From: a virus | DNA: 20,652 nt | IMG/VR virus record: IMGVR_UViG_3300027631_000169 | Span: 1 to 20,652 of that record | Reading direction: 5' to 3' (one strand) | Shown: one piece after another, positions 1-18,889 of the stretch | How positions within the stretch are numbered: the stretch's first letter is position 1 | How the letters are laid out: every line of letters starts with the position of its first letter | Made by a program: the position numbers and the translations under genes | The notes under the pieces: generated by a model | The model's input: the letters and a program-made list of their open reading frames with translations, nothing else | Told to the model about the DNA's origin: nothing | The model's database searches: none

Positions 1-1135
1 CTGGCTTAGTAGATTTAACTACTTTACTAGCGATTCCTTCTTTGATTGTTTTCTTAGCGTTTTTGTTAATTGAAGTGTATTTGAAGTTCTCTGCTAATGT
101 AGAGAATACCAATTTAACCTCTCTTACTGATTTAGTTCTATCTAAAGTTTCGATAACTTTAATTTTTTGTTCGTTAGTCATATTATGAGCTCTGAACAAT
201 TTGTTAGCGAATAATAATTTTGCGTTTAACAAATTAACTTCGTTGATAGTTCTTTGTAATGATTTGATAGTGTTGTAGGCTTCTTCTAATTCAGCTTCTT
301 TTTCAGCTTCCTCAGCTTCATCCATCTTCTCTTCATCACCTTTCATATCAGATTCCATTTCTCTTAAAATTTCTTCTAAGTCAACTTCGTCTGATTCTTC
401 TTCAGCTTCGTTAGTTACAACTACTTTAGGGTCTTCGCCTTTATCAGTACCAGCTTCAGAACCATCTGCTAAATTTTCATTAGCTGCGAATGGATTTTCT
501 TCAGCAGGTGCTTCTTCAGAACCCTCTTCGTCTCCTAACTGAGCTTCTAATTCTCTGATGATTGCTTCTAAGTCCATGTCATCTTCAGATTCCTCTTCAG
601 CACCCATGTCCATTGAATCACCACCCATTTCAGAATCCATGCCCATGTCATCCATGCCCATTTCATCTTCACCTTCAGCTTCTGTTGCTGCAAAAGGATT
701 TTCTTCTTCAGAACCTTCTTCACCTTCTAATTCTGCTAATCTCGCTTTCAATTCTGCGATTTCAGCATCTTTTTCAGATGGTTCTGATTCCATACCATAC
801 TCATCTTCTTCGTTGATGTCTGCTACTTTTTTGTAATCGGCAACTTGTGCACCTGGCTCGCCAGATGTTGTTTTAGTTGAACCGCCTTCAAATTCAGTGT
901 CAGCATCCAAAGATGGTACAGATGTAGAAGAACCGATTCCTGTTGAATCTAATTCTTCATCTACTTGCTCTTCATCGCCTTCCATCTCAGCTTCAGCTCT
1001 TAACTTTTGAGTTAACATAGACTGTAGTCTTGGTGTAAAGGCTTCTTCTAAAGCAAGCTTTGCGTTAGCTAATGCAGTTTCTTTTACCGCTTTAGCATCG
1101 GCGATTGCTTCTTTCAATAATTTTGAATTTGCCAT
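1..1135 (-). CDS. Acidic prohead core/scaffold-like protein (gp22-like), partial
   Basis: The ATG is at 1135 and the frame stays open to the left edge, giving 378 residues without the C-terminus. The N-terminus (residues 1-50) is helical and begins MANSKLLKEAIADA, where LLKE resembles a prohead-protease site. Residues 50-290 are extremely acidic and Met/Glu/Asp-rich and contain an imperfect duplication: EENPFAA occurs at 144-150 and 212-218, and DLEAIIRELE (188-197) resembles DLEEILREME (252-261). Residues 285-378 turn basic and helical (NEVNLLNAKLLFANKLF at 298-314). Acidic coiled-coil composition, position downstream of the protease and the likely major capsid gene just beyond the edge fit the internal scaffold that shapes the T4-type prohead and is then degraded. 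The family call is by composition and synteny, not by a catalytic motif. The gene is separated from bS21 by a terminator and a 184-base gap, so it probably has its own promoter. Confidence 0.7.
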   Translation of the reverse strand, partial: MANSKLLKEAIADAKAVKETALANAKLALEEAFTPRLQSMLTQKLRAEAEMEGDEEQVDEELDSTGIGSSTSVPSLDADTEFEGGSTKTTSGEPGAQVADYKKVADINEEDEYGMESEPSEKDAEIAELKARLAELEGEEGSEEENPFAATEAEGEDEMGMDDMGMDSEMGGDSMDMGAEEESEDDMDLEAIIRELEAQLGDEEGSEEAPAEENPFAANENLADGSEAGTDKGEDPKVVVTNEAEEESDEVDLEEILREMESDMKGDEEKMDEAEEAEKEAELEEAYNTIKSLQRTINEVNLLNAKLLFANKLFRAHNMTNEQKIKVIETLDRTKSVREVKLVFSTLAENFKYTSINKNAKKTIKEGIASKVVKSTKP

Positions 1136-2333: not shown

Positions 2334-2924
2334 TTAGTTTAATTCAATTATAATTTCTCTCATCAAATCTTGTGAGCGACACCATTTACCACATTCCTCT
2401 GCAACTTTTGCCCATTGCTTTGATTCGTTCATTGGTGCCATAAATGCGCCGTGCGTAGAAGGATTGGATACAAAATCCCATCCAACCAATTCGAAGTCCT
2501 CCTGAACCATTACAGTCCCGTCTGATAACTCTTTTACCGAACCCAATCCTCTCGATGAAATACCTAAACGAATATTGTTTTTTAATAGTTCTCTAAGAAT
2601 GTTTCCAGATGGAGTTGAAAGTATTTCTACTATACCAACTACATCATCACCATCCCAACCTATTTCCCTAATGTTATGAGATACGTTCTTTAAATTGATT
2701 ACGGGAGAATCTGGATGGTCTAACTCACCTAATGCTCTACGCTCTTTAATAAGTTGTTCGTATTTCTTACACTCTCTTTCTAAGATTTCTTTAGGATATC
2801 TTCTATGATTTTGATTTGGAGCACCTGCTCTTTGTAGGATTCCTTTAACTAAATAAGTTCCGTTATCCTGTTCAACGAGTTTTGCTTCAAACAAATGGGT
2901 CTCTATTAATAATCCTTTATTCAT
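2334..2924 (-). CDS. gp21: Prohead core protease (gp21-like)
   Basis: 196 residues, close to T4 gp21 (212 residues). The family signature is clear: GELDHP at 66-71 with the likely catalytic His70, INLKNVSHNI at 76-85, GISSRGLGSV at 121-130 with the catalytic Ser at 123 or 124, and ELVGWDFVSNPSTHGA at 145-160. These serine proteases of the herpesvirus-assemblin type are incorporated in the prohead core, activate by self-cleavage and cut scaffold, portal-associated, internal and capsid proteins after (hydrophobic)-x-Glu. The ATG directly abuts the upstream TAA (TAAATG), so translation is probably coupled. Several proteins in this window carry matching hydrophobic-x-Glu sites near their ends or between domains and are candidate substrates. 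Confidence 0.93.
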   Translation of the reverse strand: MNKGLLIETHLFEAKLVEQDNGTYLVKGILQRAGAPNQNHRRYPKEILERECKKYEQLIKERRALGELDHPDSPVINLKNVSHNIREIGWDGDDVVGIVEILSTPSGNILRELLKNNIRLGISSRGLGSVKELSDGTVMVQEDFELVGWDFVSNPSTHGAFMAPMNESKQWAKVAEECGKWCRSQDLMREIIIELN

Positions 2925-5586: not shown

Positions 5587-7314
5587 TTACTTTTTATCCA
5601 AATCTTCCATTAAAATAGTCTTTTTGTTACCCATCATATCTTTAAATATTTCCTTAGATTCTCTCTGAGCTTTTTGCTTTAAAGTTTTAATTCCTAACGG
5701 GTCTCTTCCTAAATGATGGTCATCTTTGCCATATCTAACAACATCTTTTGGTCTACCAACTTTACCTTCTTCCTCCAATTCTTCTTTTATTTTTTGAATT
5801 TCTTCTTCTACATTGGTTGGTTCTCCTGCTCCGGTTTCTTTTGCCGGGTCAACACCTTGTGTTTCAATTGATGTTAAACGGAATGTTTGTTTTGTATCTT
5901 CGATAACATCTACTGTTAACTCATCTTGCTCTTCAGGAGTCATATCCATAATAGCATCGTACATCCATTTTTTAGAGAACATTTTAGTTTGTTGCATTTG
6001 TTGAATTAATGCTATTTTAGATGTATATAATTCAACTTTCTCTTGCTCATAAATTTTAGATGGTATTGTTAATTCTAATTGAAAATCTAATTCATCCTCA
6101 CCATCTAATCCTTGTGCATATAAGTGAACAATTGCTATCTTAGTTAATTCCGATACCAATACTTTCTGAATTCTTTCTATTGTTTTTGCAAATCTAACAT
6201 CTTGTGCTGCCAATGTAGCTTTACCACTAACATCTTCTTCGTATCCTAAAAATGCTTTTGGTATTTTTAATGCAGCCATCAACTTACCTTTTAAGTAGTT
6301 GATATCATCAATCATATTATATTCTAAACCTTTTAGGGTGTCGATTGAAGTACCATTATCACTACCACGAACTGGCATATAATAATCTTCAATTAAGTTT
6401 TGAATATTGTATTTTAAGTTATATTCACCCGTAGCTTGGTCTAAGAAAGGAACTTTTTTAGATGAGTTGATAATTTTTTGCATGTAGTTATCAACTTCAG
6501 TTGGTGGAATATTGCCAACATCCACTTTAAATATTCTCTTTTCAGGTGCTCTCATAATACGATGGATTAACATCGCATCTTCCATTAACATTAATTGTTT
6601 CCAAACTCTTCTACCACCTTCAATCATAGATTTTCCGTAAGGTAGGAAGTTTGAATCGGAATATAAACGGAAGTGAGCTATTTCGTAGTTTTCAAATTCT
6701 CTTTTTGAAGAAGCCGTTACCATTGCACTATTTGGATTCTGATATGGTGCATATACGAATTTAACTCTTTGTGGATTTTGTGCATCAAACCCTTCAACTC
6801 GAGATGTTTCATATACCGATAAAGGTTGTACACCTACGATACCCAATTCTTCAGCTATTTCTAAATGTAAAAAGAAATCACCATATTTTACTAAGTTTCT
6901 ACTCCAAGGCCATAGATTAAATTCAATATTTAAAATATCATAAAAAAGATTTCTAAGAATTTCTTTTGTATTTTCGTTTGCACAATTTATTTTAAGTACA
7001 TCGCCTAATTCATTCTTTACGGTTGCTTCATCTGCGTAAATATCTAATGCTGATGATAAAATTGGGTCATTATCCATTCCATCATAATCTCTAAACAAAT
7101 CAATTCTAACTTGTTGATAAGCCATTGCGGATTCTATCAAACCACCACTATATTGTGGAGTTTTCATACGCATGTACCTATCTATTAGATTTGTTGTTAA
7201 TCCTTGATACTCATCGGTATCTATTACTTTGATACCTTGTTTTGTTTTACGAACTATTGTATTAGTTGAAAATAGTTTTTGTAACCTACCGAAAAATGAT
7301 TTATCTGTTGCCAT
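5587..7314 (-). CDS. gp20: Portal vertex protein (gp20-like)
   Basis: 575 residues, near T4 gp20 (524). Residues 40-100 give the typical RYMRMKTPQYSGGLIESAMA and DPILSSALDIYADEA segments; 309-326 read EDYYMPVRGSDNGTSIDT, followed by DDINYLKGKLMAALKIPKAFL (336-356), the conserved portal core of T4-like phages. The dodecameric portal is the DNA entry channel of the head, the docking site of the terminase and the nucleus for prohead assembly. The C-terminal tail (after about 480) is acidic, then charged, and ends ILMEDLDKK, containing a hydrophobic-x-Glu motif that the prohead protease might trim. A Bacteroidota-type promoter lies 20-50 bases upstream. T4 has tail sheath and tube genes between terminase and portal; here only one small gene lies there. 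Confidence 0.95.
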   Translation of the reverse strand: MATDKSFFGRLQKLFSTNTIVRKTKQGIKVIDTDEYQGLTTNLIDRYMRMKTPQYSGGLIESAMAYQQVRIDLFRDYDGMDNDPILSSALDIYADEATVKNELGDVLKINCANENTKEILRNLFYDILNIEFNLWPWSRNLVKYGDFFLHLEIAEELGIVGVQPLSVYETSRVEGFDAQNPQRVKFVYAPYQNPNSAMVTASSKREFENYEIAHFRLYSDSNFLPYGKSMIEGGRRVWKQLMLMEDAMLIHRIMRAPEKRIFKVDVGNIPPTEVDNYMQKIINSSKKVPFLDQATGEYNLKYNIQNLIEDYYMPVRGSDNGTSIDTLKGLEYNMIDDINYLKGKLMAALKIPKAFLGYEEDVSGKATLAAQDVRFAKTIERIQKVLVSELTKIAIVHLYAQGLDGEDELDFQLELTIPSKIYEQEKVELYTSKIALIQQMQQTKMFSKKWMYDAIMDMTPEEQDELTVDVIEDTKQTFRLTSIETQGVDPAKETGAGEPTNVEEEIQKIKEELEEEGKVGRPKDVVRYGKDDHHLGRDPLGIKTLKQKAQRESKEIFKDMMGNKKTILMEDLDKK

Positions 7315-7371: not shown

Positions 7372-7854
7372 TTACCATTTTCTGCAACTCCAATAGTTTG
7401 CTTTGTGTCTTGGACCTGGATTATCACAATTCATTCTTGCTCTAAATGATTTTCTAGCCGCAGGATTTGATTTTCTAATTTTCATCCCTTTCTGCCCAAA
7501 GTTTACCTTAACAACATTGCCTGCTGGGTTCTTTACATATACTTTGAATTTTTTAATATCACCTTGCATTGGTTTACCCAATTGTACGTTTCTACCCTGA
7601 TATTCTGCTTCATATACACAATTACAATTTGCTTCAGCTAAAGTATTTTTGTACGCTTTTAGAAATTCAATGAAATCTTCAATTTCTTCAGGCTCAACAT
7701 CTAATTCATCATATTCATTATCAGTTGTTTCTTCTTTAATAGGAACACAATTTGGTACTTCTTTACCATTTTTATCCTTAGTACCTACCATTTCATATCC
7801 TTTCCAACAAGGATTTTCCATTTCTTTTAGTGGAATTAGATTTATTAGCTTCAT
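7372..7854 (-). CDS. Cys-containing small head-region protein (DUF5872-like C-terminus)
   Basis: 160 residues in three parts. Residues 1-12 (MKLINLIPLKEM) resemble a short capsid-targeting peptide with an LKE site. Residues 15-41 (NPCWKGYEMVGTKDK, then PNCVPIKEE) form a CWKGY...VPNCVP motif widespread in proteins of marine and freshwater T4-like phages. Residues 119-160 contain a basic, aromatic motif with RKSFRARMNCDNPGP and YWSCRKW, which I associate with DUF5872. Cys16, 36, 77, 79, 143 and 157 could bind zinc. Function is not established. It lies between terminase and portal, and its gap from the terminase holds a TATATTTAT motif 19 bases before the ATG. Confidence 0.7.
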   Translation of the reverse strand: MKLINLIPLKEMENPCWKGYEMVGTKDKNGKEVPNCVPIKEETTDNEYDELDVEPEEIEDFIEFLKAYKNTLAEANCNCVYEAEYQGRNVQLGKPMQGDIKKFKVYVKNPAGNVVKVNFGQKGMKIRKSNPAARKSFRARMNCDNPGPRHKANYWSCRKW

Positions 7855-7873: not shown

Positions 7874-7882
7874 ATAAATATA
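7874..7882 (-). promoter_or_regulatory. TATATTTAT motif upstream of the DUF5872-like gene
   Basis: TATATTTAT on the minus strand (7882-7874) lies 19 bases before the ATG at 7854. A TTG occurs 19 bases further upstream, inside the 3' end of the terminase gene. This copy therefore fits either a T4-like late element or a degenerate Bacteroidota promoter. Confidence 0.35.
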
Positions 7883-7888
7883 TAAAAA

Positions 7889-9499
7889 TTACTTTAGCAA
7901 CCAAGTTAGGTTTTCGGTTTCCCCTTTTCCTAAATGCATTTCGTATGGATTTTTTTGATTTTGCCAATTTGCAGCATAAACACCCGTATCATTATGTATC
8001 GTAGTTGAGTTTAACATACTCTTTGTCAAATCTATTCCCTCTTGTCTTAAACGAAGTGCGGTATTACGAACCCACAATCCAATACCTAATGCCATTGTTA
8101 AGTCATCATTGTATCCCTTCATAGCTTCTGCTCTACCACCATTCCAAATGAATGTAAATAATTCATCTATCAATCTATTAGAACGAATTAAGATATCTTT
8201 ATCCTTCATATAGTTATCTAATGCTGAAATGATAAGAGGACGAGTTTTGGATGTCGTAGAAAATCCAGCAACCATACTTCTTTCTTCTCTATAATATTTG
8301 TTACTCATTTGTCTTTCGGTATCCACATATTGTAAATCATTACTCATATAGAATAAATTAGGATATCCCCTATTGATTACTTGCTGAATTGTAGCCCAAC
8401 CAACGTTAGCATTTTCAATTACTAATAATGCGTTATTATATTCGGTTGATAATGCAGTTAAAAAATTACCAAAATCTTTTGTATCTATCTTTCCTCTATA
8501 TTCTCCAACTTGCGATGAATCTTCTATATCAATTATTTGACACGTAGAATAATCCGTACCATCGCCTCTCGCCACGTCGGCAGATATCATATATTGTCTA
8601 TTGTAATTAGGATGTTCCCATATCCAAAGATTTCCATCGAAACCTCTCTTTTCAACAGGTTCCATTACATATGTTTCCTTATACCAAGTTAATAATGCCG
8701 GGTCGATTACAGTATCACCCGAACCGATAAAGTCACAATCACATTCTTGCGATGCTCCTTTTGCTCCTAAGATTCGAGTTTGCTCATCCCTCCATGCTTG
8801 ATTTCTTTCAGGGTGTACAGTCCAATGTAGATTAATACAATTGAATCCATTTTGCCCCGCTTCACCGGCTACCCAAGTTTTATGAAAGAAGTTACCCACA
8901 CCATTTGGTGTAGAAAGAATAATTGCACTACCACCCGTTGATAGAGTTGATTGTGCTGATAACCAAATATCATCGATATCTCTAATGAATGCAGCCTCAT
9001 CCACAACTAATAGGGATAGGGCTTCCGAACGTCCTGCATCAGGTGAAGATGCGATTGCTTTTACTTGCGAACCATTCTTTAATTTAAGTGATAGTTTATT
9101 ATCTTCGGATGCCGCCGTTGAACCATCTCTTAACCAAATAGGAAGTAAATCGTGCATAACCCTAACCTTCTCTACTAAGTTCTTTGCAACAGTTACTTTA
9201 GTTGCAATAACCAACGCATTGAAGTCTTGGTTGAATATCATCTTCCAAAGTATAAAGCCCGCCGATAGGGTTGATAAACCTAATTGGCGGGATTTAAGAA
9301 TAATATTGAATCTATTATCTTTAAAATCATCTAAACAATTTTCCTGAAAAGGATATAGATGAAATGGAATTTTTCCACGAGTAGGGTGTTGAATGACACA
9401 ATACTTTTTCATAAAGTATATCGGGTCTAACGCACACTTCTTATACTCATCGGAGATGATTTCTTTTAGTGTTTTTTTAGGTTGCCCTTGTACACTCAT
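7889..9499 (-). CDS. gp17: Terminase large subunit (gp17-like)
   Basis: 536 residues: an N-terminal packaging ATPase and C-terminal RNase H-fold nuclease. The adenine/Q region is FHLYPFQ (46-52); the Walker A-like loop is KSRQLGLST (69-77); Walker B is LLVVDE (163-168); the coupling motif is STP (196-198). Nuclease acidic residues are D308 (ISADVARGDGTD), E362 (LLVIENAN) and D466 (YNDDLTMALG). The enzyme docks on the portal, cuts concatemeric DNA and drives it into the prohead. The loop has Leu where the classical Walker lysine stands (GLS rather than GKT), with a Lys at the loop's start instead, as in some other terminases. Its ATG overlaps the upstream stop (TAATG at 9499). No small terminase subunit was recognised with certainty nearby. 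Confidence 0.95.
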   Translation of the reverse strand: MSVQGQPKKTLKEIISDEYKKCALDPIYFMKKYCVIQHPTRGKIPFHLYPFQENCLDDFKDNRFNIILKSRQLGLSTLSAGFILWKMIFNQDFNALVIATKVTVAKNLVEKVRVMHDLLPIWLRDGSTAASEDNKLSLKLKNGSQVKAIASSPDAGRSEALSLLVVDEAAFIRDIDDIWLSAQSTLSTGGSAIILSTPNGVGNFFHKTWVAGEAGQNGFNCINLHWTVHPERNQAWRDEQTRILGAKGASQECDCDFIGSGDTVIDPALLTWYKETYVMEPVEKRGFDGNLWIWEHPNYNRQYMISADVARGDGTDYSTCQIIDIEDSSQVGEYRGKIDTKDFGNFLTALSTEYNNALLVIENANVGWATIQQVINRGYPNLFYMSNDLQYVDTERQMSNKYYREERSMVAGFSTTSKTRPLIISALDNYMKDKDILIRSNRLIDELFTFIWNGGRAEAMKGYNDDLTMALGIGLWVRNTALRLRQEGIDLTKSMLNSTTIHNDTGVYAANWQNQKNPYEMHLGKGETENLTWLLK

Positions 9500-10866: not shown

Positions 10867-13800
10867 TTATCTCCCAAACTTAAAAATTCCTAAAATTTGA
10901 TTTAAAGGAGCAAATGTTCCTGTTAATTTATATGTGTTACCTTTATAGAAAAATACCAATCCCTCATTTGGAACTAATTTTTCAAATCCGCCAATAGCAT
11001 TTAATCTAGCTAATTCCTTTTCCAATCTCTTTATTTGAGCTACACTACCACCACTTTTGATATCGGATATCGATGATTCTAATGATGCTCTAATGGATTG
11101 TAATGCCTTATCAGGCTGAGCCGTTAATACTGAACTCATAAATGATAATACTTCTGCTCCAACTCCTAAAAAGATATCTTCAAATTTACGAACGTTGCCT
11201 TTCATTATTTTATCTTTAGCATCCTTATCTACACCATCTGCCCATTTTCTAGCATCTTCATCAGTTATAGATTTAATACCAAAAGATTTATTATCAAATG
11301 CCCATCTTCTTGCCAATCCTTCTTTTTCTAATTTTGTTAAATTCTTTTTAGAATTATTAACAAATTTCATCCACCAAGCGTAATGATATTCAGCTACACC
11401 ATCTTTATCGGATAAACCAAATTCAGATTGTAGTTTAGATAACATACTATTAAATTTTCCTTTTTGAGAACTTAACTTTTCATCTTTTGGAAGTTTTGTA
11501 ATTGGAGGGCCTTGCAATGTATATTGTGATTGTACGTGTGCATTTATTTGTTTAATCATAGATGCTAATTTACTTTCGGCACCCCTTACACTTCCAACTG
11601 CATTACCTTTTTCATCGTATTCAACTACATTATGAAATACTAATAAAGATTGTCCATAAGGAATCACATTTGCATTTTGTGGATAGATTACTTCTAAGTT
11701 ACAAAATGCTGAACCATCTTTGAATATACTTTTCTTTTCAGATTCACCCAATCCATTAATAGCAGTTGATAAATCTCTCATTGCGAAATTATATGCATCA
11801 CTCAATTCACCTCTTCCGGCAAACTTAGATGCCAATGCACTCATATCTAAAGCGTTTGCTCCACCATTTGCTAAATGTGATTTGTTACGAGCCGCAATTA
11901 ATTTACCATTTTTCCAACTGATTGCTAATGCCTGTCCATCGGTTTTTTCTCTAACAACTCCCAACTTACCATCTAACGCATTATTAATAATTTTTTTTAA
12001 ATCGCTAAATGTAAGGTTCATCGAAATATCAAATGGATGGTTCATATGTCCATATGCCCCACCTTCCGTTATAATTTCTTTTGATTCGTAAATATTTCCA
12101 TTAAGTTTACCAAAATCTCTTAATAAAATTCCAGCTGCTGCATTTGCTTCATTCTCAACATCAGAGCCTGTTGCTCCATCTTCTGGTCCACCAATGTATC
12201 CATCTTGTCTTTGTTTAAGATGAACTAATTCGTGTGCCAATGTTCTTAGGATATCCGGAGTACTTCTATTGGTAACATATACAAATATATCATTATTAAC
12301 CGGGTCGTATCCACCAAATGATTTAAATGTTGTAGCAAACTCACCATCTTTTACCAATTTAATATTAAATGGTAAACCTATTAAACGTAATCTATCTTTT
12401 GCAAATTTTATAAATTCACCTATAACTCTACCTTTACTTTTTTTTTGTGGAGTAGCTGGCATTTCTTCTTTTAGTAATCCTAGTTTAACAGAAGCATCGG
12501 TTATTTCTTCATAATCACTATTTCTCAATTCTCTTTCTACTTCTCTCCTATTAGCGTTTGGATTTGCACAAACTGCTGCTCCAATTTTCTTTCTACCAAA
12601 TGAACTAGCTCTATCCCACAATTTCATAATTGCTTTGAAATGCCAATCACCAACTCCCACTTCGTTAAATGCGGATGGTACTTTTATTTTTACCCAACCT
12701 CCGTGTCTAAATACTCTAGCTGGTATAGGTAATGTAGAACCTATCGGTAATTTACTCTGATATTTTTTATCAACACCAACTACCTTTGTAACAAAATCTC
12801 TATTTTTATTATCAACACCAATCAATTCAACTTCTACTTCAACGGGCTGTCCACCAATTTTCATTTTACCTTTAAAAAATCCTTTTTGGATTTCACTTAG
12901 GGTTCTGAACGTTGTAGCTTGTTTACCATTAATTGTTGGCATTCCGTGGTCATCTTTTCCAATACTTTTAATTTGTACTTTCTTATTTTTGAATTTACCC
13001 ATTAAAACAGTATCACCATTATCAACATCAACATTTACATCTTCTTTAACTAAATCTCCGAAATTTTTGCTTTGTTTATATGATTTAATGGATTGCAATA
13101 ATTGCTCATCTGACATTTCAAATGTTTCCATTTTTTCTGCCATTTTATTTATTATATTCTGAATATATTTTTCAGAATTCATTTCTTCTTCTTCGGTAAT
13201 TAGGGAACGTATTTCTAATAATCCCATCGTTGCACCTGCCAATCCAGCTCCACCAAGAGCGGCTTGCGTACCACCCATACCCATAGATTCCAATGCAACG
13301 TGTTTAATGGCATCTTTACCTAAGTGTGCGGCAAAACCACCTACTCCGTGAGTAAATGCCCCAACTGCACCACTTGCTGTTGCAGATGCCGCTCCACCTA
13401 AACCTGCTCCACCTGCTATTGCTTTAGCACCAGCGGCTAATCCACCACCCAATGCAACACTAGCAACTAAAAGACCTAAATCTTTATAAAAATGTTTTAT
13501 ATGATGTACTTGCTCTTTTCTTTTTTCATCGGAGTATTCCCATTCGCCGGTTTCTTTATTTTTAGTAGAACCAATCTTTTGCCCACTAGCTAATGCTTTA
13601 TGTCCATCCCAAGCGCCTTTTATCATTTCACCTTTATGTTGTAAAACGTGTCCAATTGCTTTAACAACTTTGGTATCAGCTACTTTTTTTATACCATCTT
13701 TCAAAGAGTTCATAAATTTAGAACCTTGCTTATGTTCTCCATTTTGAATGAACTCTTGTTCATCTTTATTTAAATCTTTAATTTCATTGTCTAATGCAGT

Positions 13801-14895
13801 TTTTAACTCTTCAGCTTTTCTTTCTTTTGAAACTCTATCTTCTGCATCTGATTTTAATTCTGCTCCTTTTAATTTTTGAGGATTTGGTGCTTCCGGCGTA
13901 TCAGCTGCTCCACCTTTTTCTTTATCAACTTTACCTTGCGCCGTTTGGTCTTTCTTAACAGGTTGTCCAGGTTCAGCGGGTTTTGCTGATTGAGTTGCCG
14001 CTTTACCCTTTGGTTCGTTAGCCGGTGCGTCATCAGGTCCAACTAATTTAGTTGCTTGAATATGTGCTTCGTGGTCTTTTGGTAATCGTAACGCTCCCCT
14101 AACAGTAATTTTTTTCTTTTTACCATCAGCTGCAGTGTAATTAATTTCCTTATCCATTACAGGATTTGGCTCTTCTTCTAAGAAATACTCATCTATAAAA
14201 CTATCAGTTTCGGATATTAATTTTGCAATTTGTTCAGCTATCGGGTCATACACATACGAATCATCGGTAGTTGCTACTGAACGAATCGCATCATTTTTCT
14301 TTTGTATTTTCTTAACATCTTCTTTAGATGGATAGCCTGTCGCAAGTTCCTCTTTAATTAGTTTGTTGGTTATCATTTTAAAAATTTCTTTATCGAATTT
14401 TGGATATGCTTTTAAGAATAATTTTTCAGCATCATCCGAGCTCAACCATTTTCTTACATCAGTTCCGCTAATTGGATTTGATTCAGATGGTATTATATAA
14501 GTATAACCAATCTCATCGTAACCATATCCCGTTTTACCATTATATGGCTTAAAGTATTTACCTGCTAATCTACTAGCATCCTTATCACCGACAGCCGCAA
14601 TGTATGCCGTTGTTTTACCATCGAATTTGGAAAGTATTTCTTTTGGTGCATATGGGTTTGATACTTGTACTATTTTGCTTGGAGGGATTCCAAACATTTT
14701 ACCCATTATTACAACTTTTTCTTTAAAAGTAAATGGAGATTTACCACCATCGCTTTTATCCGATGTACCAATGTAAACATTGTTAACGCCAAATTTTGAC
14801 ACTAATTTTTGATACGCAGCGTAATGTCCCTTGTGAAAAGGTTGAAAACGGCCTGAATATACTACTATTGTTTTTTTAACTATTGGTTTATCCAC
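10867..14895 (-). CDS. Giant multidomain protein: nucleotidyltransferase, metallopeptidase and ligase-like domains
   Basis: 1342 residues. GTG start at 14895: an in-frame TAG lies nine bases upstream and no ATG precedes the catalytic motif. Residues 1-180 are an NMNAT/cytidylyltransferase-like domain with SGRFQPFHKGHY (14-25) and ISGTDVRKW (142-150). Residues 190-470 are a charged, Lys/Pro/Ala-rich linker. Residues 473-560 are Gly/Ala-rich and hydrophobic. Residues 572-805 form an unrecognised beta then helical domain. A zinc peptidase follows with AHELVHLKQ (887-895) and ENEAN (914-918). Residues 945-1342 are a DUF6267-type, ligase-like domain: EKTDG (983-987), NLEV (1067-1070), NEGLVFFYKG (1310-1319) and YKLTG (1322-1326). 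Sites such as LIKE, FLEE, LITE, LLKE and IITE lie at 179, 238, 565, 807 and 941, between domains, matching T4-type prohead protease specificity. A packaged, processed polyprotein is inference. Confidence 0.8.
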   Translation of the reverse strand: MDKPIVKKTIVVYSGRFQPFHKGHYAAYQKLVSKFGVNNVYIGTSDKSDGGKSPFTFKEKVVIMGKMFGIPPSKIVQVSNPYAPKEILSKFDGKTTAYIAAVGDKDASRLAGKYFKPYNGKTGYGYDEIGYTYIIPSESNPISGTDVRKWLSSDDAEKLFLKAYPKFDKEIFKMITNKLIKEELATGYPSKEDVKKIQKKNDAIRSVATTDDSYVYDPIAEQIAKLISETDSFIDEYFLEEEPNPVMDKEINYTAADGKKKKITVRGALRLPKDHEAHIQATKLVGPDDAPANEPKGKAATQSAKPAEPGQPVKKDQTAQGKVDKEKGGAADTPEAPNPQKLKGAELKSDAEDRVSKERKAEELKTALDNEIKDLNKDEQEFIQNGEHKQGSKFMNSLKDGIKKVADTKVVKAIGHVLQHKGEMIKGAWDGHKALASGQKIGSTKNKETGEWEYSDEKRKEQVHHIKHFYKDLGLLVASVALGGGLAAGAKAIAGGAGLGGAASATASGAVGAFTHGVGGFAAHLGKDAIKHVALESMGMGGTQAALGGAGLAGATMGLLEIRSLITEEEEMNSEKYIQNIINKMAEKMETFEMSDEQLLQSIKSYKQSKNFGDLVKEDVNVDVDNGDTVLMGKFKNKKVQIKSIGKDDHGMPTINGKQATTFRTLSEIQKGFFKGKMKIGGQPVEVEVELIGVDNKNRDFVTKVVGVDKKYQSKLPIGSTLPIPARVFRHGGWVKIKVPSAFNEVGVGDWHFKAIMKLWDRASSFGRKKIGAAVCANPNANRREVERELRNSDYEEITDASVKLGLLKEEMPATPQKKSKGRVIGEFIKFAKDRLRLIGLPFNIKLVKDGEFATTFKSFGGYDPVNNDIFVYVTNRSTPDILRTLAHELVHLKQRQDGYIGGPEDGATGSDVENEANAAAGILLRDFGKLNGNIYESKEIITEGGAYGHMNHPFDISMNLTFSDLKKIINNALDGKLGVVREKTDGQALAISWKNGKLIAARNKSHLANGGANALDMSALASKFAGRGELSDAYNFAMRDLSTAINGLGESEKKSIFKDGSAFCNLEVIYPQNANVIPYGQSLLVFHNVVEYDEKGNAVGSVRGAESKLASMIKQINAHVQSQYTLQGPPITKLPKDEKLSSQKGKFNSMLSKLQSEFGLSDKDGVAEYHYAWWMKFVNNSKKNLTKLEKEGLARRWAFDNKSFGIKSITDEDARKWADGVDKDAKDKIMKGNVRKFEDIFLGVGAEVLSFMSSVLTAQPDKALQSIRASLESSISDIKSGGSVAQIKRLEKELARLNAIGGFEKLVPNEGLVFFYKGNTYKLTGTFAPLNQILGIFKFGR

Positions 14896-14913
14896 TATCC
14901 CCTATTTTTATAT

Positions 14914-14921
14914 ATAAATAT
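14914..14921 (-). promoter_or_regulatory. ATATTTAT motif upstream of the giant gene
   Basis: GATATTTATATATAAAAATAG on the minus strand contains the ATATTTAT core (14921-14914), 18 bases before the GTG at 14895. AGGGG (14903-14899) lies three bases before the GTG and is one of the few Shine-Dalgarno-like sequences in the window, though the spacing is short. Confidence 0.35.
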
Positions 14922-14935
14922 CTTTTTATTAAAGA

Positions 14936-15061
14936 TTAGAAACTTTTGTAGATAAATGGGTCTCTTTTTTTAAGTTCTTCTAATTTTTTCTTAAATCTTT
15001 TTTTTCTTTTTCGTTCTTCGTATAACTTTACAAAGAAGGAAATTATTGGCCAGTTTTTCAT
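14936..15061 (-). CDS. 41-residue highly basic protein
   Basis: A short ORF with the sequence start MKNWPIISFFVKLYEER, then a Lys/Arg-rich helix (RKRKKRFKKKLEELKKR) and the end DPFIYKSF. The ATG overlaps the TGA of the HAD phosphatase gene (ATGA), and the stop lies 40 bases before the giant gene. An amphipathic, aromatic N-terminus followed by a strongly basic helix and a DPFIYK tail is a layout I associate with tiny conserved proteins of environmental phages. The overlap and the coherent amphipathic protein argue that it is real. Membrane- or nucleic-acid-binding roles are both possible; the function is unknown. Confidence 0.7.
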   Translation of the reverse strand: MKNWPIISFFVKLYEERKRKKRFKKKLEELKKRDPFIYKSF

Positions 15062-15426
15062 AATAATTGTTTTAATTTTATTTTTGCTTCATCTAATCCC
15101 ATTGCTTTATCATCTATAAGTAAATCATAATGTATTTTACCCATATATAATCCGTTATGCTTTACACCCCATTTTTCTAAACTATTCAATGTTATATCAT
15201 ATAACTTTGAGTAGATTTCCTTAACATCTCCATTCAATGTATGCATACCTCTTGCGGTATAAATATATATTATGTGTCCTTTATCGTATAAAGAGTTTGA
15301 TAAATCTATCATTTCTTGTATTGGTTCACAATAATGGTACTTATCTATTCCCAATGATTCCTTTTCTTTTGGACGAAAACATAGTGTATCATCCAAATCA
15401 AATGCTAATATTTTTTTATTACTCAT
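15058..15426 (-). CDS. HAD-superfamily phosphatase
   Basis: 122 residues, a compact HAD without cap domain. Motif I is FDLDDTLC (D10 nucleophile, D12 acid/base), motif II YTARG (T58), motif III probably K97 and motif IV DLLIDDKA (D105/D106). Small HADs of this form dephosphorylate sugar or polyol phosphates and often accompany nucleotidyltransferases and kinases in surface-glycan clusters. The ATG shares its A with the stop of the GatZ-like gene (TAATG), and its TGA overlaps the start of the 41-residue gene, so it is the penultimate member of a coupled operon. The substrate is unknown; context suggests a product of the aldolase-like protein. Confidence 0.85.
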   Translation of the reverse strand: MSNKKILAFDLDDTLCFRPKEKESLGIDKYHYCEPIQEMIDLSNSLYDKGHIIYIYTARGMHTLNGDVKEIYSKLYDITLNSLEKWGVKHNGLYMGKIHYDLLIDDKAMGLDEAKIKLKQLL

Positions 15427-16367
15427 TATGGTAAACTATTTAATTTATTTTGTATATTTTCTTTTATGACTGAATCGATGTTTGGTAATTCATATAAATC
15501 GTAACAATAATGCCCACATACTTGTATTAATTTACGTTTATCATTTATATCAAAATCACTCTTAACCCATTTTTCCCATTTTTTAGAATCGAAACAAATT
15601 TGATAAAATTCATCAATTTGGTTTTCACTCATATGTTCTAAATATGTTAATGTTTGTATTTGTGCAATTTCAGGTCCTATATTTAAGCTATCAACGCCTG
15701 AATTAAATCTAATTTCTAATTCCTCATTGGTTAAATAATCACCATTATGCTCTTTGGTTTTTTTATCAAATCGTTTACAAATTTCAACCATAGATTTTAA
15801 TCTTTGTAAATTAAATTTGCCTGAATTTTTCATATTAACTAAATCTAATCCAACACCAGATTGTATTACAACAAATTCTATATTTGAAAATATTTCTTCT
15901 TTTAAATTATCATTTAAAAATGTTAATATACTATTCAACTCAAAATCTTCAATACGAATAATTGCTTCTTCGGTTAAAATTTCATATTTTAAATTAGGAT
16001 TTATATGATATAGATAATTCATAGTATCGAATGTTTGAGCTATACCAATCGATTTATCATCTACTACAATTTTCCAAGGGTCAATATGAATTATATCAAA
16101 ATATTTTGCATCATTAACATATGATAGAAATCCATCATCTTCAATTTTTCCTTGGTTTGGACCGGAGTGGTCTCTTTCCAAAACAACATCACTTTTGCTT
16201 CTGACATATTTATGAAATGTAGTAGTATCCCATCCATTTACATATCCTCCATCAAAATCGATTTGCCTTCGAGTTGGTAATAATCCAAATCTATCAGATT
16301 GTAATTCCAATACAGAATCTACAATTTGCTTAGACATTGGACATATAAAGTATTTAGGTGTTTTCAT
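15426..16367 (-). CDS. GatZ/KbaZ-like TIM-barrel protein (tagatose-bisphosphate aldolase subunit family)
   Basis: 313 residues. Motifs parallel GatZ/KbaZ in order: QIDFDGGYVNGWDTTTFHKY (35-54) corresponds to their NQVNQFGGYTGM...F region; ERDHSGPNQG (64-73) to GGDHLGPN; HIDP (94-97) to HLD; YEILTEEAI (128-136) to YVIGTEVPV; VVIQSGVGLD (166-175) to VVQPGVEFD; and EHNGDYLTNE ... LNIGPEIA (206-235) to EAHSTDYQT...LKVGPAL. GatZ and KbaZ are described as the non-catalytic partner of class II tagatose-bisphosphate aldolases, with a TIM-barrel fold; the catalytic partner is absent here. The protein is about 100 residues shorter than GatZ. It overlaps the AroE-like gene by 14 bases. A role in making or modifying a phosphorylated sugar in this cassette is inference. 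Confidence 0.65.
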   Translation of the reverse strand: MKTPKYFICPMSKQIVDSVLELQSDRFGLLPTRRQIDFDGGYVNGWDTTTFHKYVRSKSDVVLERDHSGPNQGKIEDDGFLSYVNDAKYFDIIHIDPWKIVVDDKSIGIAQTFDTMNYLYHINPNLKYEILTEEAIIRIEDFELNSILTFLNDNLKEEIFSNIEFVVIQSGVGLDLVNMKNSGKFNLQRLKSMVEICKRFDKKTKEHNGDYLTNEELEIRFNSGVDSLNIGPEIAQIQTLTYLEHMSENQIDEFYQICFDSKKWEKWVKSDFDINDKRKLIQVCGHYCYDLYELPNIDSVIKENIQNKLNSLP

Positions 16368-16998
16368 AATCTATGCCTGTGTATATTTTAAATTGATGTT
16401 TAGCTTGTTCTCTATGTAACATAGTCCCACTTTCACTTTCAACTAAACAATCTACATATGTGTTTGTTGAATCTGTTACTATTGTAAGCGGTGTACAATT
16501 GAAAATAAATTTATTTTTTAATGTATATAATGTATCCCAATTATCCCTAACAATATTTTCAACACTCAATCCCAATTCACTCGCAGCCACTTTAACCGAT
16601 GCTGCTAATCCACCATTACCTAAAACATATAAAGTATCAAATCCTTTGTTATAATGGGTTATAAGCTTTAATGCGGCATAGTAATCGGTATTATAACCAA
16701 TCATCGTATCCGAAGTCATTAAAACAGTATTGATATTACCTACTTTTTTAGCCGCATTATCTACTTCATCCATTAAACTGAATGCAGTAACTTTAAATGG
16801 CATTGATATTGCGCAACCAGAAAATCCTAAGTATTGTGCGGATATAAGCGCCTTTGATATATTATTTACTGAAAACGATTTATATACTGAATTTATGCCA
16901 TGTCTTTCAAATGCCGTATTAAAGAATTTACATCCCATACTACCAGCTCTTTCGCTTAAAGAACCATATATTTTTGTATCTCTATTTATTGTAATCAT
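16354..16998 (-). CDS. Shikimate dehydrogenase-like (AroE-like) protein
   Basis: 214 residues, short of the usual 270 or so. The N-terminal substrate domain is recognisable: SLS (13-15) at the start; GFSGCAISMPFK (58-69), with K69 in the place of the catalytic Lys; VGNINTV (86-92), with N90; and GYNTDYY (101-107), with D105 in the place of the catalytic Asp. The dinucleotide-binding part begins YVLGNGGLAASV (124-135). The C-terminus is abbreviated, lacking most of the NADP-domain end. AroE reduces 3-dehydroshikimate with NADPH; relatives act on quinate or aminoshikimate-type substrates, so the real substrate is open. The gene overlaps the fusion gene upstream by 17 bases and the GatZ-like gene by 14. 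AroE-like genes are unusual in phages. Confidence 0.75.
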   Translation of the reverse strand: MITINRDTKIYGSLSERAGSMGCKFFNTAFERHGINSVYKSFSVNNISKALISAQYLGFSGCAISMPFKVTAFSLMDEVDNAAKKVGNINTVLMTSDTMIGYNTDYYAALKLITHYNKGFDTLYVLGNGGLAASVKVAASELGLSVENIVRDNWDTLYTLKNKFIFNCTPLTIVTDSTNTYVDCLVESESGTMLHREQAKHQFKIYTGIDYENT

Positions 16999-18889
16999 AT
17001 AGCATTTCTATTGATTTATACCATAACATTTTTGAAAATTTATCATCATGTAATGGTGACATATTTAAAAATATAATAGCAGTTAGTAATTTAACTTTGT
17101 TTAAATCGAATCCATTATTTATTATCCATTCTTCATACACATCTTTGAATTTTGTTAAATCCGAAGATACACTATAAGAATATGTTACAGAATAATCACC
17201 TTGAACGAATGTAATATTATCTTCGTTTTTCATTTTATCATATGGTATAATACATCCACCATACATTTTTGCTAAATCATAGTAAATATCTCCACCATTC
17301 GTATATCCACCAAATGATTCTCTCCAATCAATATATGTAAATTTCCTTTGTCCTAAATTATATACAATATTATCAAATTGTAAATCACCGTGAAATGCCG
17401 GATAAAACGGGTTTGATTCAAATTGTTTAAAATCTATTTTAGAAAATATAGATTCCATAGATGGATAATCTATACCATTTATATTATGGCTTTCTACATA
17501 GTAATTTATATTATTTTTATTTATAAATAAATTCAAACGTTCATTTGTTTTATCTACATAAAATTTCTTAATATGTTCAACTGAATTTGGTGATTGAGTT
17601 GATATGTTAGATTTTAGTTCTTCCAAAAACTTAACATATACTTCAAACATATCGATTTCATATAATGTACTTCCTTCTTGCCATTTATATGATATAAAGT
17701 TATTAGTATATTTGAAGTTATCAGGTATTTTATTTCCTAATTCTTTAGCTCTAATAATTCGGTTATCTAATACTGATTTATTTGGAGTAAATTTTATAAA
17801 TGCATTACCTTCTTTATATGTTATTTCCGAATTATCCTTTTGTAAAGAAAGTGGCTTATCATTTAGGTATTCTTTAGTTTTATTCAAATCATCTAAATTA
17901 CCGGTATCCAACCATTTCAATTTTTTTGCTTTAAAGGTAGGGTAGTTCGATGGAGTTTTAAATGCTGATACTATTTCACCTTCTACGATATTATCCTCCA
18001 ATTGCTCCCAAAACACCCCATAATCCCATATTCCAGCCAATCCTATAAATGCCATATCATATCCGTTCTCATTTTTATTAGAATAACGGATGATATCATT
18101 TCCACTTAATTGTACAGTTGAATATTTTTCAGGATATGATGTCGGGTGTATTCCCAACCAATTACCATCTAAGTGTGGCATTGGCGAATCTATTAAACAA
18201 TCACAAGTTGCTATATAAAATGGTCTTTGTAGATAAGATTTACATTGTAATGCCGAATAGCCTGGACCCGAAGCGTATCCATCTACATTATCAATTTCTA
18301 CAAAAGTAAATTTATGTGTTGGAAAAGCCAATTCACAATATTCTCTAACTGAATCTCCTTTATAACCAATTGCTATGATAAATTCATATTCTTTTGGAAA
18401 CTTATCAATTATATGTGAAATAATTGCACGATTGTTAATTGGTAGTAAAGCCTTATTGATTTCTTTGGTTAGATTTCCCAATCGAGTTCCTAATCCAGCT
18501 GCCAATATTAATACGGCAGGTGTTTGATGTTCGCCTTCTATTTTACCATTTGCTCTTGCAAATTCATCATCAATTCTAATAACATCATCTACTTCGGGAG
18601 TTGATACTTCTTGTAAGATAATATCGGTTAGTGCAATAACTCTATGTTTTTTGGGAGGTGTAACATTGAAGTATTCACCGGCTTTCATAATTTTCTTTTC
18701 AACTACACCTTCATCGTTTTCTAACCAAATTTCAGCTTCTCCTGATATAATGAAATTTGTTTCTCTTTTCAAATTATGATATTGATATGAGGTTTTGTAA
18801 CCTGCATTGATGTATATTCGTTTATAACAATATGCATCATTTAATTCTAACCATTCTTCCTTTCCCCAAGGTTTTATTATTGTTTTCAT
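16982..18889 (-). CDS. Cupin-nucleotidyltransferase-APH kinase fusion
   Basis: 635 residues, three domains. Residues 1-110 are a type II phosphomannose-isomerase-like cupin (SYQYHNLKRETNFIISGEAE, H38, E43, H82 in PPKKHRV); the usual second His of the HxH pair is replaced (HNL). Residues 124-345 are a sugar nucleotidyltransferase: LILAAGLGTRLGNLTKEINK (127-146), metal-binding D230 in ATCDCL and D328 in WLDTGN. Residues 355-635 are a choline/aminoglycoside-kinase-like phosphotransferase: HGDLQFDN (500-507) and YIDWRESFGG (519-528). The order cupin then transferase is the reverse of bacterial ManC/AlgA. A kinase and nucleotidyltransferase in one chain suggest phosphorylation and then nucleotide activation of a small alcohol or sugar, as in LicA plus LicC. 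The substrate is unknown. It starts 22 bases after the glycosyltransferase-like gene and overlaps the AroE-like gene. Confidence 0.88.
   Translation of the reverse strand: MKTIIKPWGKEEWLELNDAYCYKRIYINAGYKTSYQYHNLKRETNFIISGEAEIWLENDEGVVEKKIMKAGEYFNVTPPKKHRVIALTDIILQEVSTPEVDDVIRIDDEFARANGKIEGEHQTPAVLILAAGLGTRLGNLTKEINKALLPINNRAIISHIIDKFPKEYEFIIAIGYKGDSVREYCELAFPTHKFTFVEIDNVDGYASGPGYSALQCKSYLQRPFYIATCDCLIDSPMPHLDGNWLGIHPTSYPEKYSTVQLSGNDIIRYSNKNENGYDMAFIGLAGIWDYGVFWEQLEDNIVEGEIVSAFKTPSNYPTFKAKKLKWLDTGNLDDLNKTKEYLNDKPLSLQKDNSEITYKEGNAFIKFTPNKSVLDNRIIRAKELGNKIPDNFKYTNNFISYKWQEGSTLYEIDMFEVYVKFLEELKSNISTQSPNSVEHIKKFYVDKTNERLNLFINKNNINYYVESHNINGIDYPSMESIFSKIDFKQFESNPFYPAFHGDLQFDNIVYNLGQRKFTYIDWRESFGGYTNGGDIYYDLAKMYGGCIIPYDKMKNEDNITFVQGDYSVTYSYSVSSDLTKFKDVYEEWIINNGFDLNKVKLLTAIIFLNMSPLHDDKFSKMLWYKSIEMLYDYNK

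Follow-up and report, generated by a model that had tools for sequence, protein, structure and literature searches.

Whether a phage can enclose several enzymes in its head as one chain and free them with its own capsid protease is the question raised by a locus in a 20,652-nucleotide stretch of viral DNA (IMG/VR record IMGVR_UViG_3300027631_000169; hereafter the window). A single open reading frame of 1342 residues with a GTG start at 14895 occupies 10867..14895; an earlier note on this DNA, made from the letters alone, had given its length and limits exactly, though the frame is on the minus strand. The note had read the product as a capsid-packaged polyprotein cut by the phage protease. This interpretation is partly supported by our analysis, and we regard as rather probable a virion-packaged polyvalent polyprotein that would carry enzymes of an RNA-repair or NAD type as cargo, undergo cleavage in trans by the prohead protease and be injected with the DNA.

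Head-gene neighbourhood and prohead protease

The neighbours of the ORF encode a terminase, a portal protein, a gp21-type (S77) protease and a scaffold, which places it among the clustered late head genes of a T4-like myovirus. In this and later sequences ^ marks a cut, known or candidate, after Glu.

10867..14895, minus strand: putative modular polyprotein gene, 1342 residues, GTG start
14913..14920, minus strand: late-promoter-like box TATTTATA upstream of that gene; TATTTAT in 55/56 family genes
2334..2924, minus strand: S77 (gp21-type) prohead protease and proposed processing enzyme (Pfam S77, 1.5e-29)
2..1135, minus strand: scaffold-like protein, N-terminus MANSKLLKE^A

The TATTTAT count refers to the 60 nt upstream of each gene, where the box is nearly always at about −11/−12 or −22 to −27; the background is 2.1% of 60-nt windows. 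The family comprises at least 583 confirmed relatives in one viral collection. The Pfam match bears out the earlier note in placing a gp21-like protease in the window, and the protein itself carries terminal LLIE^T and LMRE-like sites. An S77 protease was detected in 18 of 26 records of relatives, the other eight being records of 17–40 kb that may be incomplete. T4 gp21 cleaves after L/I-x-E (PMC9026906). In the capsid proteins of the present clade, LLDE^A lies at about residue 60, the equivalent of FLTE65^A in T4 gp23.

Domains and their exchange among relatives

In order, the chain contains an NMNAT-fold nucleotidyltransferase, a Gly/Ala-rich block, an SH3-like module, a HELVH minigluzincin-like domain and an RNA-ligase-like domain.

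14350..14895, minus strand: module 1, residues 1–182, NMNAT-fold nucleotidyltransferase (GRFQPFHKGH, ISGTDVR)
13192..14172, minus strand: module 2, residues 242–568, helical region with the Gly/Ala-rich hydrophobic block at its end (about residues 470–568)
12466..13041, minus strand: module 3, residues 619–810, SH3-like unit (619–~672), then a beta-rich region
12064..12465, minus strand: module 4, residues 811–944, minigluzincin/IrrE-like domain (HELVH at 888–892)
10870..12063, minus strand: module 5, residues 945–1342, RNA-ligase-like nucleotidyltransferase (KTDG, EGLVFFYKG, YKLTG)

The three enzyme-like domains and the Gly/Ala-rich block named in the earlier note were all recovered; the confidence of the structure models is modest, at mean pLDDT values of 62.6 and 67.7. 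The NMNAT fold spans residues 7–186 (phrog_395 match, 8.9e-13), and NMNAT chains rank top in the structural comparison of module 1 (Z of 11.1 to 2r5w over 159 residues at 3.4 Å). The NMNAT-type motifs of the window's protein are SGRFQPFHKGHY (HxGH-type, GRFQPxHxGH) and ISGTDVR ([ST]xSxxxR-type); its Pfam PF01467 score of 18.6 is below the cut-off of 21, and relatives score above it. By these motifs and a Rossmann-like fold, module 1 is assigned to the NMNAT-type nucleotidylyltransferases, with a predicted activity. The HELVH domain (~811–935) matches the phrog_87 metalloprotease (2.9e-4) and, in structure, zincins of the Wss1/IrrE/selecase type (Z of 7–8 over ~90 residues), and has the zincin signature of HExxH plus a downstream Glu (HELVH...ENEANAA). 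The ligase-like domain carries the signature motifs of the ATP-dependent RNA ligase superfamily (motif I, KxDG, with EGxV and K motifs downstream), and its KTDG and its EG..V..Y.G..YKLTG stretch show little or no variation across the family alignment (A2); structural matches to this C-terminus are weak, with tRNA/RNA ligases among the best at a Z of only ~5, and no convincing relative was found among PDB sequences. The Gly/Ala-rich block can be read directly from the sequence and, like some other domains across the family, has no Pfam match.

The first and last domains are constant across relatives, and the middle modules are swapped, reordered, inserted or lost, with lengths ranging from 783 to 1974 residues. 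One relative carries a CCA-adding enzyme module, and the SH3-like unit is found alone behind differing upstream modules. The Microcystis phage Mel-JY01 version, a cytidylyltransferase-like protein (WWT39297.1), shares the NMNAT-like and ligase-like domains, a locus upstream of terminase and a junction, IIAE^GG, but consists of these two end modules only, without the middle cassettes. Relatives exchange modules at the candidate sites described below, and the chain would therefore act as a cargo cassette. Automatic mapping of breakpoints from HSP ends was rejected as noisy, with LLxD nearly as enriched near breakpoints (1.9-fold) as LLxE (2.4-fold) and the two about equal without the ligase site (1.71 and 1.73); anchor-based module starts were used instead.

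Polyvalent proteins are large chains of unrelated enzyme domains that are encoded near late virion genes, are shuffled and are thought to be injected with the DNA (Iyer et al., 2017; PMC5512222). The present chain shares with them disparate activities (here NMNAT-fold, zincin-like and ligase-like), the late virion-gene neighbourhood, a zincin-like domain and pervasive domain shuffling among relatives. It differs in content and in the proposed mode of release. The same paper leaves cytidylyltransferase/NMNAT modules unmentioned and cites RNA ligase only to say that it does not accompany 2H domains; for release it invokes peptidases embedded in the chain and, in a minority, assemblin-like domains at the C-terminus, and not L/I-x-E sites for a separate gp21-type protease of the phage.

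Candidate cleavage sites

14350..14361, minus strand: LIKE^182 (residues 179–182), where the last helix of module 1 ends; pLDDT < 50 from residue 183
14173..14220, minus strand: LISE^229, FIDE^236 and FLEE^241, clustered in a disordered linker
13192..13203, minus strand: LITE^568; conservation weak (18/44)
13042..13053, minus strand: LVKE^618, preceding the SH3-like module; conservation strong
12466..12477, minus strand: LLKE^810, preceding the metallopeptidase-like module; 24/35 relatives
12064..12075, minus strand: IITE^944, preceding the ligase-like module; [LIVM]xE^GG

Five of these motifs had been listed in the earlier note at the residues where they occur (LIKE 179–182, FLEE 238–241, LITE 565–568, LLKE 807–810 and IITE 941–944), and structure prediction puts all five in or at the edge of linkers; LISE 226–229, FIDE 233–236 and LVKE 615–618 were absent from its list. 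Two further LLxE matches, VIGE 827 and VVRE 983, are within folded domains. The enrichment that the note had suggested checking is found in placement and not in number. The 10 LLxE motifs do not significantly exceed the 6.0 ± 2.3 of shuffled sequences (P = 0.075), and their number was rejected as evidence; a 1562-residue relative has nine against 6.2 expected. Placement, unlike the count, exceeds chance in the models: eight of the ten fall within or border on linkers with pLDDT < 50, compared with 2/28 LLx[DKRNQST] control motifs (LLxD 0/3, LLx[KR] 1/11 and LLx[NQST] 1/14), and seven are inside linkers against 1.2 expected from region-preserving shuffles (P = 0.0005).

Several LxE sites and a head-cluster location would also suit a prohead-core scaffold like T4 gp22, gp67 and gp68, chopped and discarded before DNA packaging; T4 core proteins undergo several gp21 cuts each (PMC9026906). 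A discarded scaffold is nevertheless extremely improbable here, since the candidate sites avoid folded domains, and conserved catalytic motifs (KTDG, GRFQPFHKGH and HELVH) and a relative's CCA-adding module would be senseless in it.

Conservation of the sites in homologues, on which the earlier note had staked its proposal, holds at 944 (LxE in 50 of 51 distinct sequences), 182 (28/40), 241 (22/31) and 810, and is weak at 568; site 236 is likewise poorly conserved. Site 618 retains LxE in 41 of 51 distinct relatives' sequences and is among the two best-conserved sites. The ligase-like domain is directly preceded by [LIVM]xE^ in 18/18 dissimilar upstream contexts (less than 50% similarity, from loci not selected for the site; loci from a search that selected EGGAYGH were left out of this Glu count), the site reading [LI][LI]xE^GGAYGH; in the distant relative LR756508 the motif is missing directly before the domain. 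The SH3-like module has Glu immediately before its start in 13/13 contexts, a count that leaves out L069 with its truncated N-terminus, and a hydrophobic P3 in ten. Upstream of the metallopeptidase module, [LIVMFY]xE occurs in 13/14 against 8.1 expected from shuffles, at a nearly fixed distance. A conserved LxE could be inherited along with the downstream module instead of reflecting selection for cutting.

These counts bear on the alternative that a polyvalent protein is packaged and injected intact, with the border LxE uncut or only a terminal tag removed. N4 virion RNA polymerase, a polyvalent protein, is packaged unprocessed (PMC5512222), and the present sites are short, some of them poorly conserved, and not significant in total number. 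Against an intact chain stand the Glu residues that directly precede the ligase-like and SH3-like modules in all contexts counted, the contrast in linker placement with the control motifs, and a stand-alone ligase showing the same junction as a targeting-type N-terminus (see below), and we consider it unlikely. The chain might alternatively process itself through its own HELVH domain, in the way suggested for polyvalent proteins that include phage P1 DdrB; the zincin-like domain is present, and Iyer et al. propose such a role for domains of this kind (PMC5512222). However, 38 of the 68 full-length members lack any HExxH and retain the ligase site, the two-domain Mel-JY01 version still has IIAE^GG, and the junction fits the gp21 code. 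Autoprocessing was rejected on the missing HExxH and is very improbable; as the site is kept in those members, the capsid protease and not the internal metallopeptidase is likely to be the cutter.

Targeting-like N-termini and the proposed route to the host

Homologues of single modules stand alone in other phages, with N-termini that resemble T4 capsid-targeting sequences (reference, MKTYQEFIAE^A). Module 4 homologues stand alone in Synechococcus phages B23 and S-SRM01; the B23 metallopeptidase begins MNYKQFLRE^S and a stand-alone cytidyltransferase of S-SRM01 MKNFHQFITE^A. The stand-alone ligase in LR756500 begins MKFLKSYEEFLNE^NLILE^GGSYGH, in which, judged by sequence, the junction before the ligase is a targeting-type N-terminus. 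Protein gp080 of the Flavobacterium phage vB_FspM_immuto_2-6A begins MKKSQLRQIIKE^A, and both its domains match modules of the relatives L106–L108 at 51–54%; virion proteomics for Mel-JY01 or immuto phages was not found in the literature. Within the family, LLxE occurs in residues 4–22 of 28 of 53 distinct N-termini; in the window's protein, which starts VDKP, no N-terminal targeting-like tag was found. The head region of a 245-kb relative has 11 targeting-like N-termini against 4.1 expected, compared with 24 against 27.2 elsewhere. These stand-alone homologues, like the shuffled modules, are support beyond that in the earlier note.

The same N-termini weigh on a further alternative, a late cytoplasmic fusion of RNA ligase and NMNAT that would work inside the infected cell and stay out of the virion. 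T4 has free RNA ligases, with rnlB adjoining gene 24, and the catalytic domains do not look like structural proteins. The late-promoter-like box, the fixed position in the head cluster and the targeting-type N-termini on relatives and stand-alone homologues all argue against such a fusion, which we think quite unlikely.

Among the closest parallels to a processed, packaged chain are the T4 internal proteins IPI–IPIII and Alt, which share the gp21-type protease in the same phage, the L/I-x-E code (candidate sites here) and, with many relatives and stand-alone homologues, a short N-terminal tag. They differ in being separate genes trimmed at their ends, whereas one multi-enzyme chain here has candidate internal sites, and the T4 capsid-targeting sequence ending in [LI]xE is absent from the window's member. 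In the giant phages phiKZ and SPN3US, according to excerpts of the literature on them, a relative of gp21 cuts head proteins after Glu, and these proteins are ejected; the motif there is S/A-x-E, the reported SPN3US cuts remove propeptides, and in those excerpts release of several enzymes from a single chain was not found.

From the observed context, promoter-like box, domains, shuffling, site placement and conservation, and tags on stand-alone homologues, we infer packaging, cleavage, injection and function as follows. The gene would be transcribed late together with the head genes, and the multi-enzyme precursor would become part of the prohead core. As the head matures, the S77 protease of the gp21 type would cut the disordered linkers at their [LIVMF]xE sites, each time behind the Glu. 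The predicted products are the NMNAT-fold enzyme (1–182), linker peptides, the Gly/Ala-rich block (242–568), a short helical piece, the SH3-like and beta-rich module (619–810), the metallopeptidase-like domain (811–944) and the ligase-like domain (945–1342). The freed modules would remain with the DNA and pass into the host upon infection, where the ligase, the NMNAT fold and a relative's CCA-adding enzyme suggest RNA repair or nucleotide-cofactor supply against early defences.

Many RNA viruses process polyproteins with their own proteases. If the processed-polyprotein reading is correct, a phage would co-package many host-directed enzymes by means of a polyprotein that its capsid protease cuts in trans, which would explain quick exchange of cargo without rebuilt packaging signals and give a sequence rule for spotting other injected enzymes. 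More tentatively, a widespread T4-like lineage may maintain a rapidly shuffled chain of host-directed enzymes, loaded into the head as a single molecule, with the capsid protease as polyprotein processor, its linkers serving both as recombination joints and as capsid-targeting sequences, and inject an RNA-repair and cofactor kit together. One more gene in the window has comparable features and possibly encodes a further head-packaged protein, to judge by its sequence.

7372..7854, minus strand: 160-residue protein; N-terminus targeting-like (MKLINLIPLKE^), one segment cassette-like (NPCWKGYEMVG)

Gene setting and domain architecture

The 1342-residue open reading frame described in the earlier note is confirmed; it is encoded on the minus strand of the 20,652-base virus record, within a run of late head genes.

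14913-14920, minus, TATTTATA box upstream of the 1342-residue frame
14895 down to 10867, minus, 1342-residue frame, GTG start
7889-9499, minus, terminase (late head-gene run containing the frame)
5587-7314, minus, T4-type portal (same run)
2334-2924, minus, S77 prohead protease (same run)
2-1135, minus, scaffold-like protein (same run)
starting at 7880 and 5568, minus, boxes of the same type upstream of other late genes

The TATTTATA box is similar to the T4 late promoter TATAAATA and keeps a near-constant spacing from late start codons; 55 of 56 family genes have a TATTTAT box upstream, positioned in almost every case near -11/-12 or between -22 and -27 (background 2.1%). A Bacteroidota host is suggested, because the terminase is closest among isolates to Flavobacterium phages of the immuto group (54% identity). 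The cassette adjoining the head genes (15058-18889, minus) encodes a mannose-6-phosphate isomerase/NTP-transferase fusion, a shikimate-dehydrogenase substrate-binding domain and a PNK3P/HAD-like phosphatase.

The three enzyme-like domains and the Gly/Ala-rich block noticed earlier are all present. Residues 7-186 are predicted to adopt an NMNAT-type fold (structural comparison, Z 11.1 over 159 residues) and match phrog_395 (8.9e-13) and, under that model's cut-off, the NCBIfam NMN adenylyltransferase (3.7e-8). The hydrophobic block rich in Gly/Ala (residues ~470-568) and an SH3-like unit (619-672) are followed by an HELVH domain (~811-935) that resembles Wss1, IrrE and selecase (Z 7-8). The ligase-like region (945-1342) carries the ligase nucleotidyltransferase motifs KTDG, EGLVFFYKG and YKLTG, invariant or nearly so across relatives, and its fold comparison retrieves tRNA and RNA ligases with a Z of only ~5.

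Candidate cleavage sites and module borders

The motifs LIKE, FLEE, LITE, LLKE and IITE all occur at the residues claimed for them; five more LLxE sites had been overlooked, three of them in linkers (229, 236 and 618) and two within folded domains (827 and 983). Enrichment over chance holds for placement but not for the total, since the chain-wide count (10, with 6.0 ± 2.3 expected; P = 0.075) is not significant, whereas seven sites fall within linkers against 1.2 expected from region-preserving shuffles (P = 0.0005). With linkers defined as predicted-structure regions of pLDDT < 50, eight of the ten LLxE sites lie in or border them, compared with 2/28 LLx[DKRNQST] controls. Conservation is high at some sites and low at others: LxE is retained in 50/51 distinct relatives' sequences at 944, 41/51 at 618, 28/40 at 182, 22/31 at 241, 18/26 at 229, 24/35 at 810, 16/27 at 236 and 18/44 at 568.

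Sequence search found 274 relatives among viral contigs and alignment-based search confirmed at least 583, with full-length members of 783 to 1974 residues. Almost all chains open with the NMNAT-like module and close with the ligase-like one; between these ends, modules are gained, missing or reordered, and one relative (L035) places the metallopeptidase module ahead of the SH3-like module, opposite to the window order. A 1907-residue relative (L169, 835-6558, from a Flavobacteriales-binned contig) begins with the SH3-like module and continues with a CCA tRNA-nucleotidyltransferase module (3.6e-51), followed by the NMNAT-like and ligase-like modules; it also includes a ParB-like stretch.

Among loci not selected on that Glu, [LIVM]xE^ (^ marking a candidate cut point) precedes the ligase-like module in all 18 upstream contexts (<50% alike), and the motif is still present at ~35% identity (Mel-JY01, IIAE^GG; LR756500, LILE^GG). 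Glu precedes the SH3-like module in 13/13 contexts (hydrophobic P3 in 10), and [LIVMFY]xE lies upstream of the metallopeptidase module in 13/14 (8.1 expected from shuffles). Module borders follow the capsid-protease cleavage code, a pattern that could stem from selection acting on the site or from its inheritance along with the downstream module.

T4 gp21 cleaves after L/I-x-E (PMC9026906). In the T4 record, gp23 reads FLTE65^A, and both IPII and IPIII read MKTYQEFIAE^A. The corresponding stretch in capsid proteins from the window's relatives is LLDE^A, around residue 60; the S77 proteases carry LLIE^T close to their own N-terminus. A search of 26 relative records for S77 located it in 18; the other eight (17-40 kb) may be incomplete. 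The internal HELVH domain appears not to be required for the proposed cutting, because the 38 of 68 full-length members without HExxH keep the ligase-border site.

Targeting-type N-termini

Stand-alone module homologues carry N-termini of the targeting type: the LR756500 ligase (MKFLKSYEEFLNE^NLILE^GGSYGH), the S-SRM01 cytidyltransferase (MKNFHQFITE^A) and the B23 metallopeptidase (MNYKQFLRE^S). So does immuto gp080 (MKKSQLRQIIKE^A), encoded a few genes upstream of terminase, both domains of which match modules of related loci L106-L108 (51-54% identity). LLxE lies within residues 4-22 in 28/53 distinct family N-termini. In a 245-kb relative, the head region has more tag-like N-termini than expected (11 versus 4.1), with no such excess elsewhere (24 versus 27.2). 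The window's 1342-residue protein has no N-terminal tag and begins VDKP, the residues directly after NLINE^ and NLSE^ in two related loci (L042 and L040, respectively); the lineage's targeting signal would therefore have to lie elsewhere or be dispensable.

Proposed processing and related proteins

Linker placement, border conservation and tags on stand-alone homologues favor the polyprotein reading of the earlier note, while the non-significant motif count and the untagged window protein weigh against it; a polyprotein processed by the capsid protease is the best available interpretation and is partly supported. We infer that the precursor would be synthesized late and enter the prohead core, that the capsid protease would release its modules during head maturation, and that these would stay with the DNA, enter the host and there serve to repair damaged RNA early on or to supply cofactors. 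The ligase-like and NMNAT-fold cargo, with the CCA-adding enzyme of L169, would fit such a role, which is consistent with phages countering RNA-cutting defences (PMC7824862, PMC9503650).

T4 internal proteins share the processing code and tags but are encoded as separate genes. Polyvalent proteins (PMC5512222), the nearest class, are likewise multi-enzyme chains beside late genes; their processing is ascribed to peptidases embedded in the chain or, for a minority, to assemblin-like domains at the C-terminus, whereas the window family has candidate sites for a trans-acting capsid protease at its joints. That paper makes no mention of cytidylyltransferase/NMNAT modules and refers to RNA ligase only in saying that its 2H domains show no association with it. 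No multi-enzyme chain combining shuffled modules with joint sites for a trans-acting capsid protease turned up in the open-licence papers searched, an absence that is weak evidence.

Several other proteins have related features. A 160-residue window protein (7372-7854, minus) has a targeting-like N-terminus, MKLINLIPLKE^MENPCWKGYEMVG, and is a candidate second head-packaged protein; the cassette after this N-terminus is fused to DUF5661 in Synechococcus phage B23 gp266 (L173). Flavobacterium phage immuto_2-6A gp088 (L170, 3132-5855), annotated NadR, is a 907-residue multidomain chain and likely another polyprotein. It combines an NMNAT-like domain with a pair of zincin-like HExxH motifs and has the sites VVKE496 and VMAE702. 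The RegB-like module of immuto gp080, together with its flanks, has a related counterpart within a DUF2213-annotated protein of Vibrio phage vB_VpaM_VPs20. In the 245-kb relative (L184-L185), genes outside the head cluster at 218335, 236303, 236544 and 236945 share near-identical N-terminal tags (MIRLKSLLKE, MIKLTDLISE, MKLKDLLNE) and are candidates for further packaged proteins.
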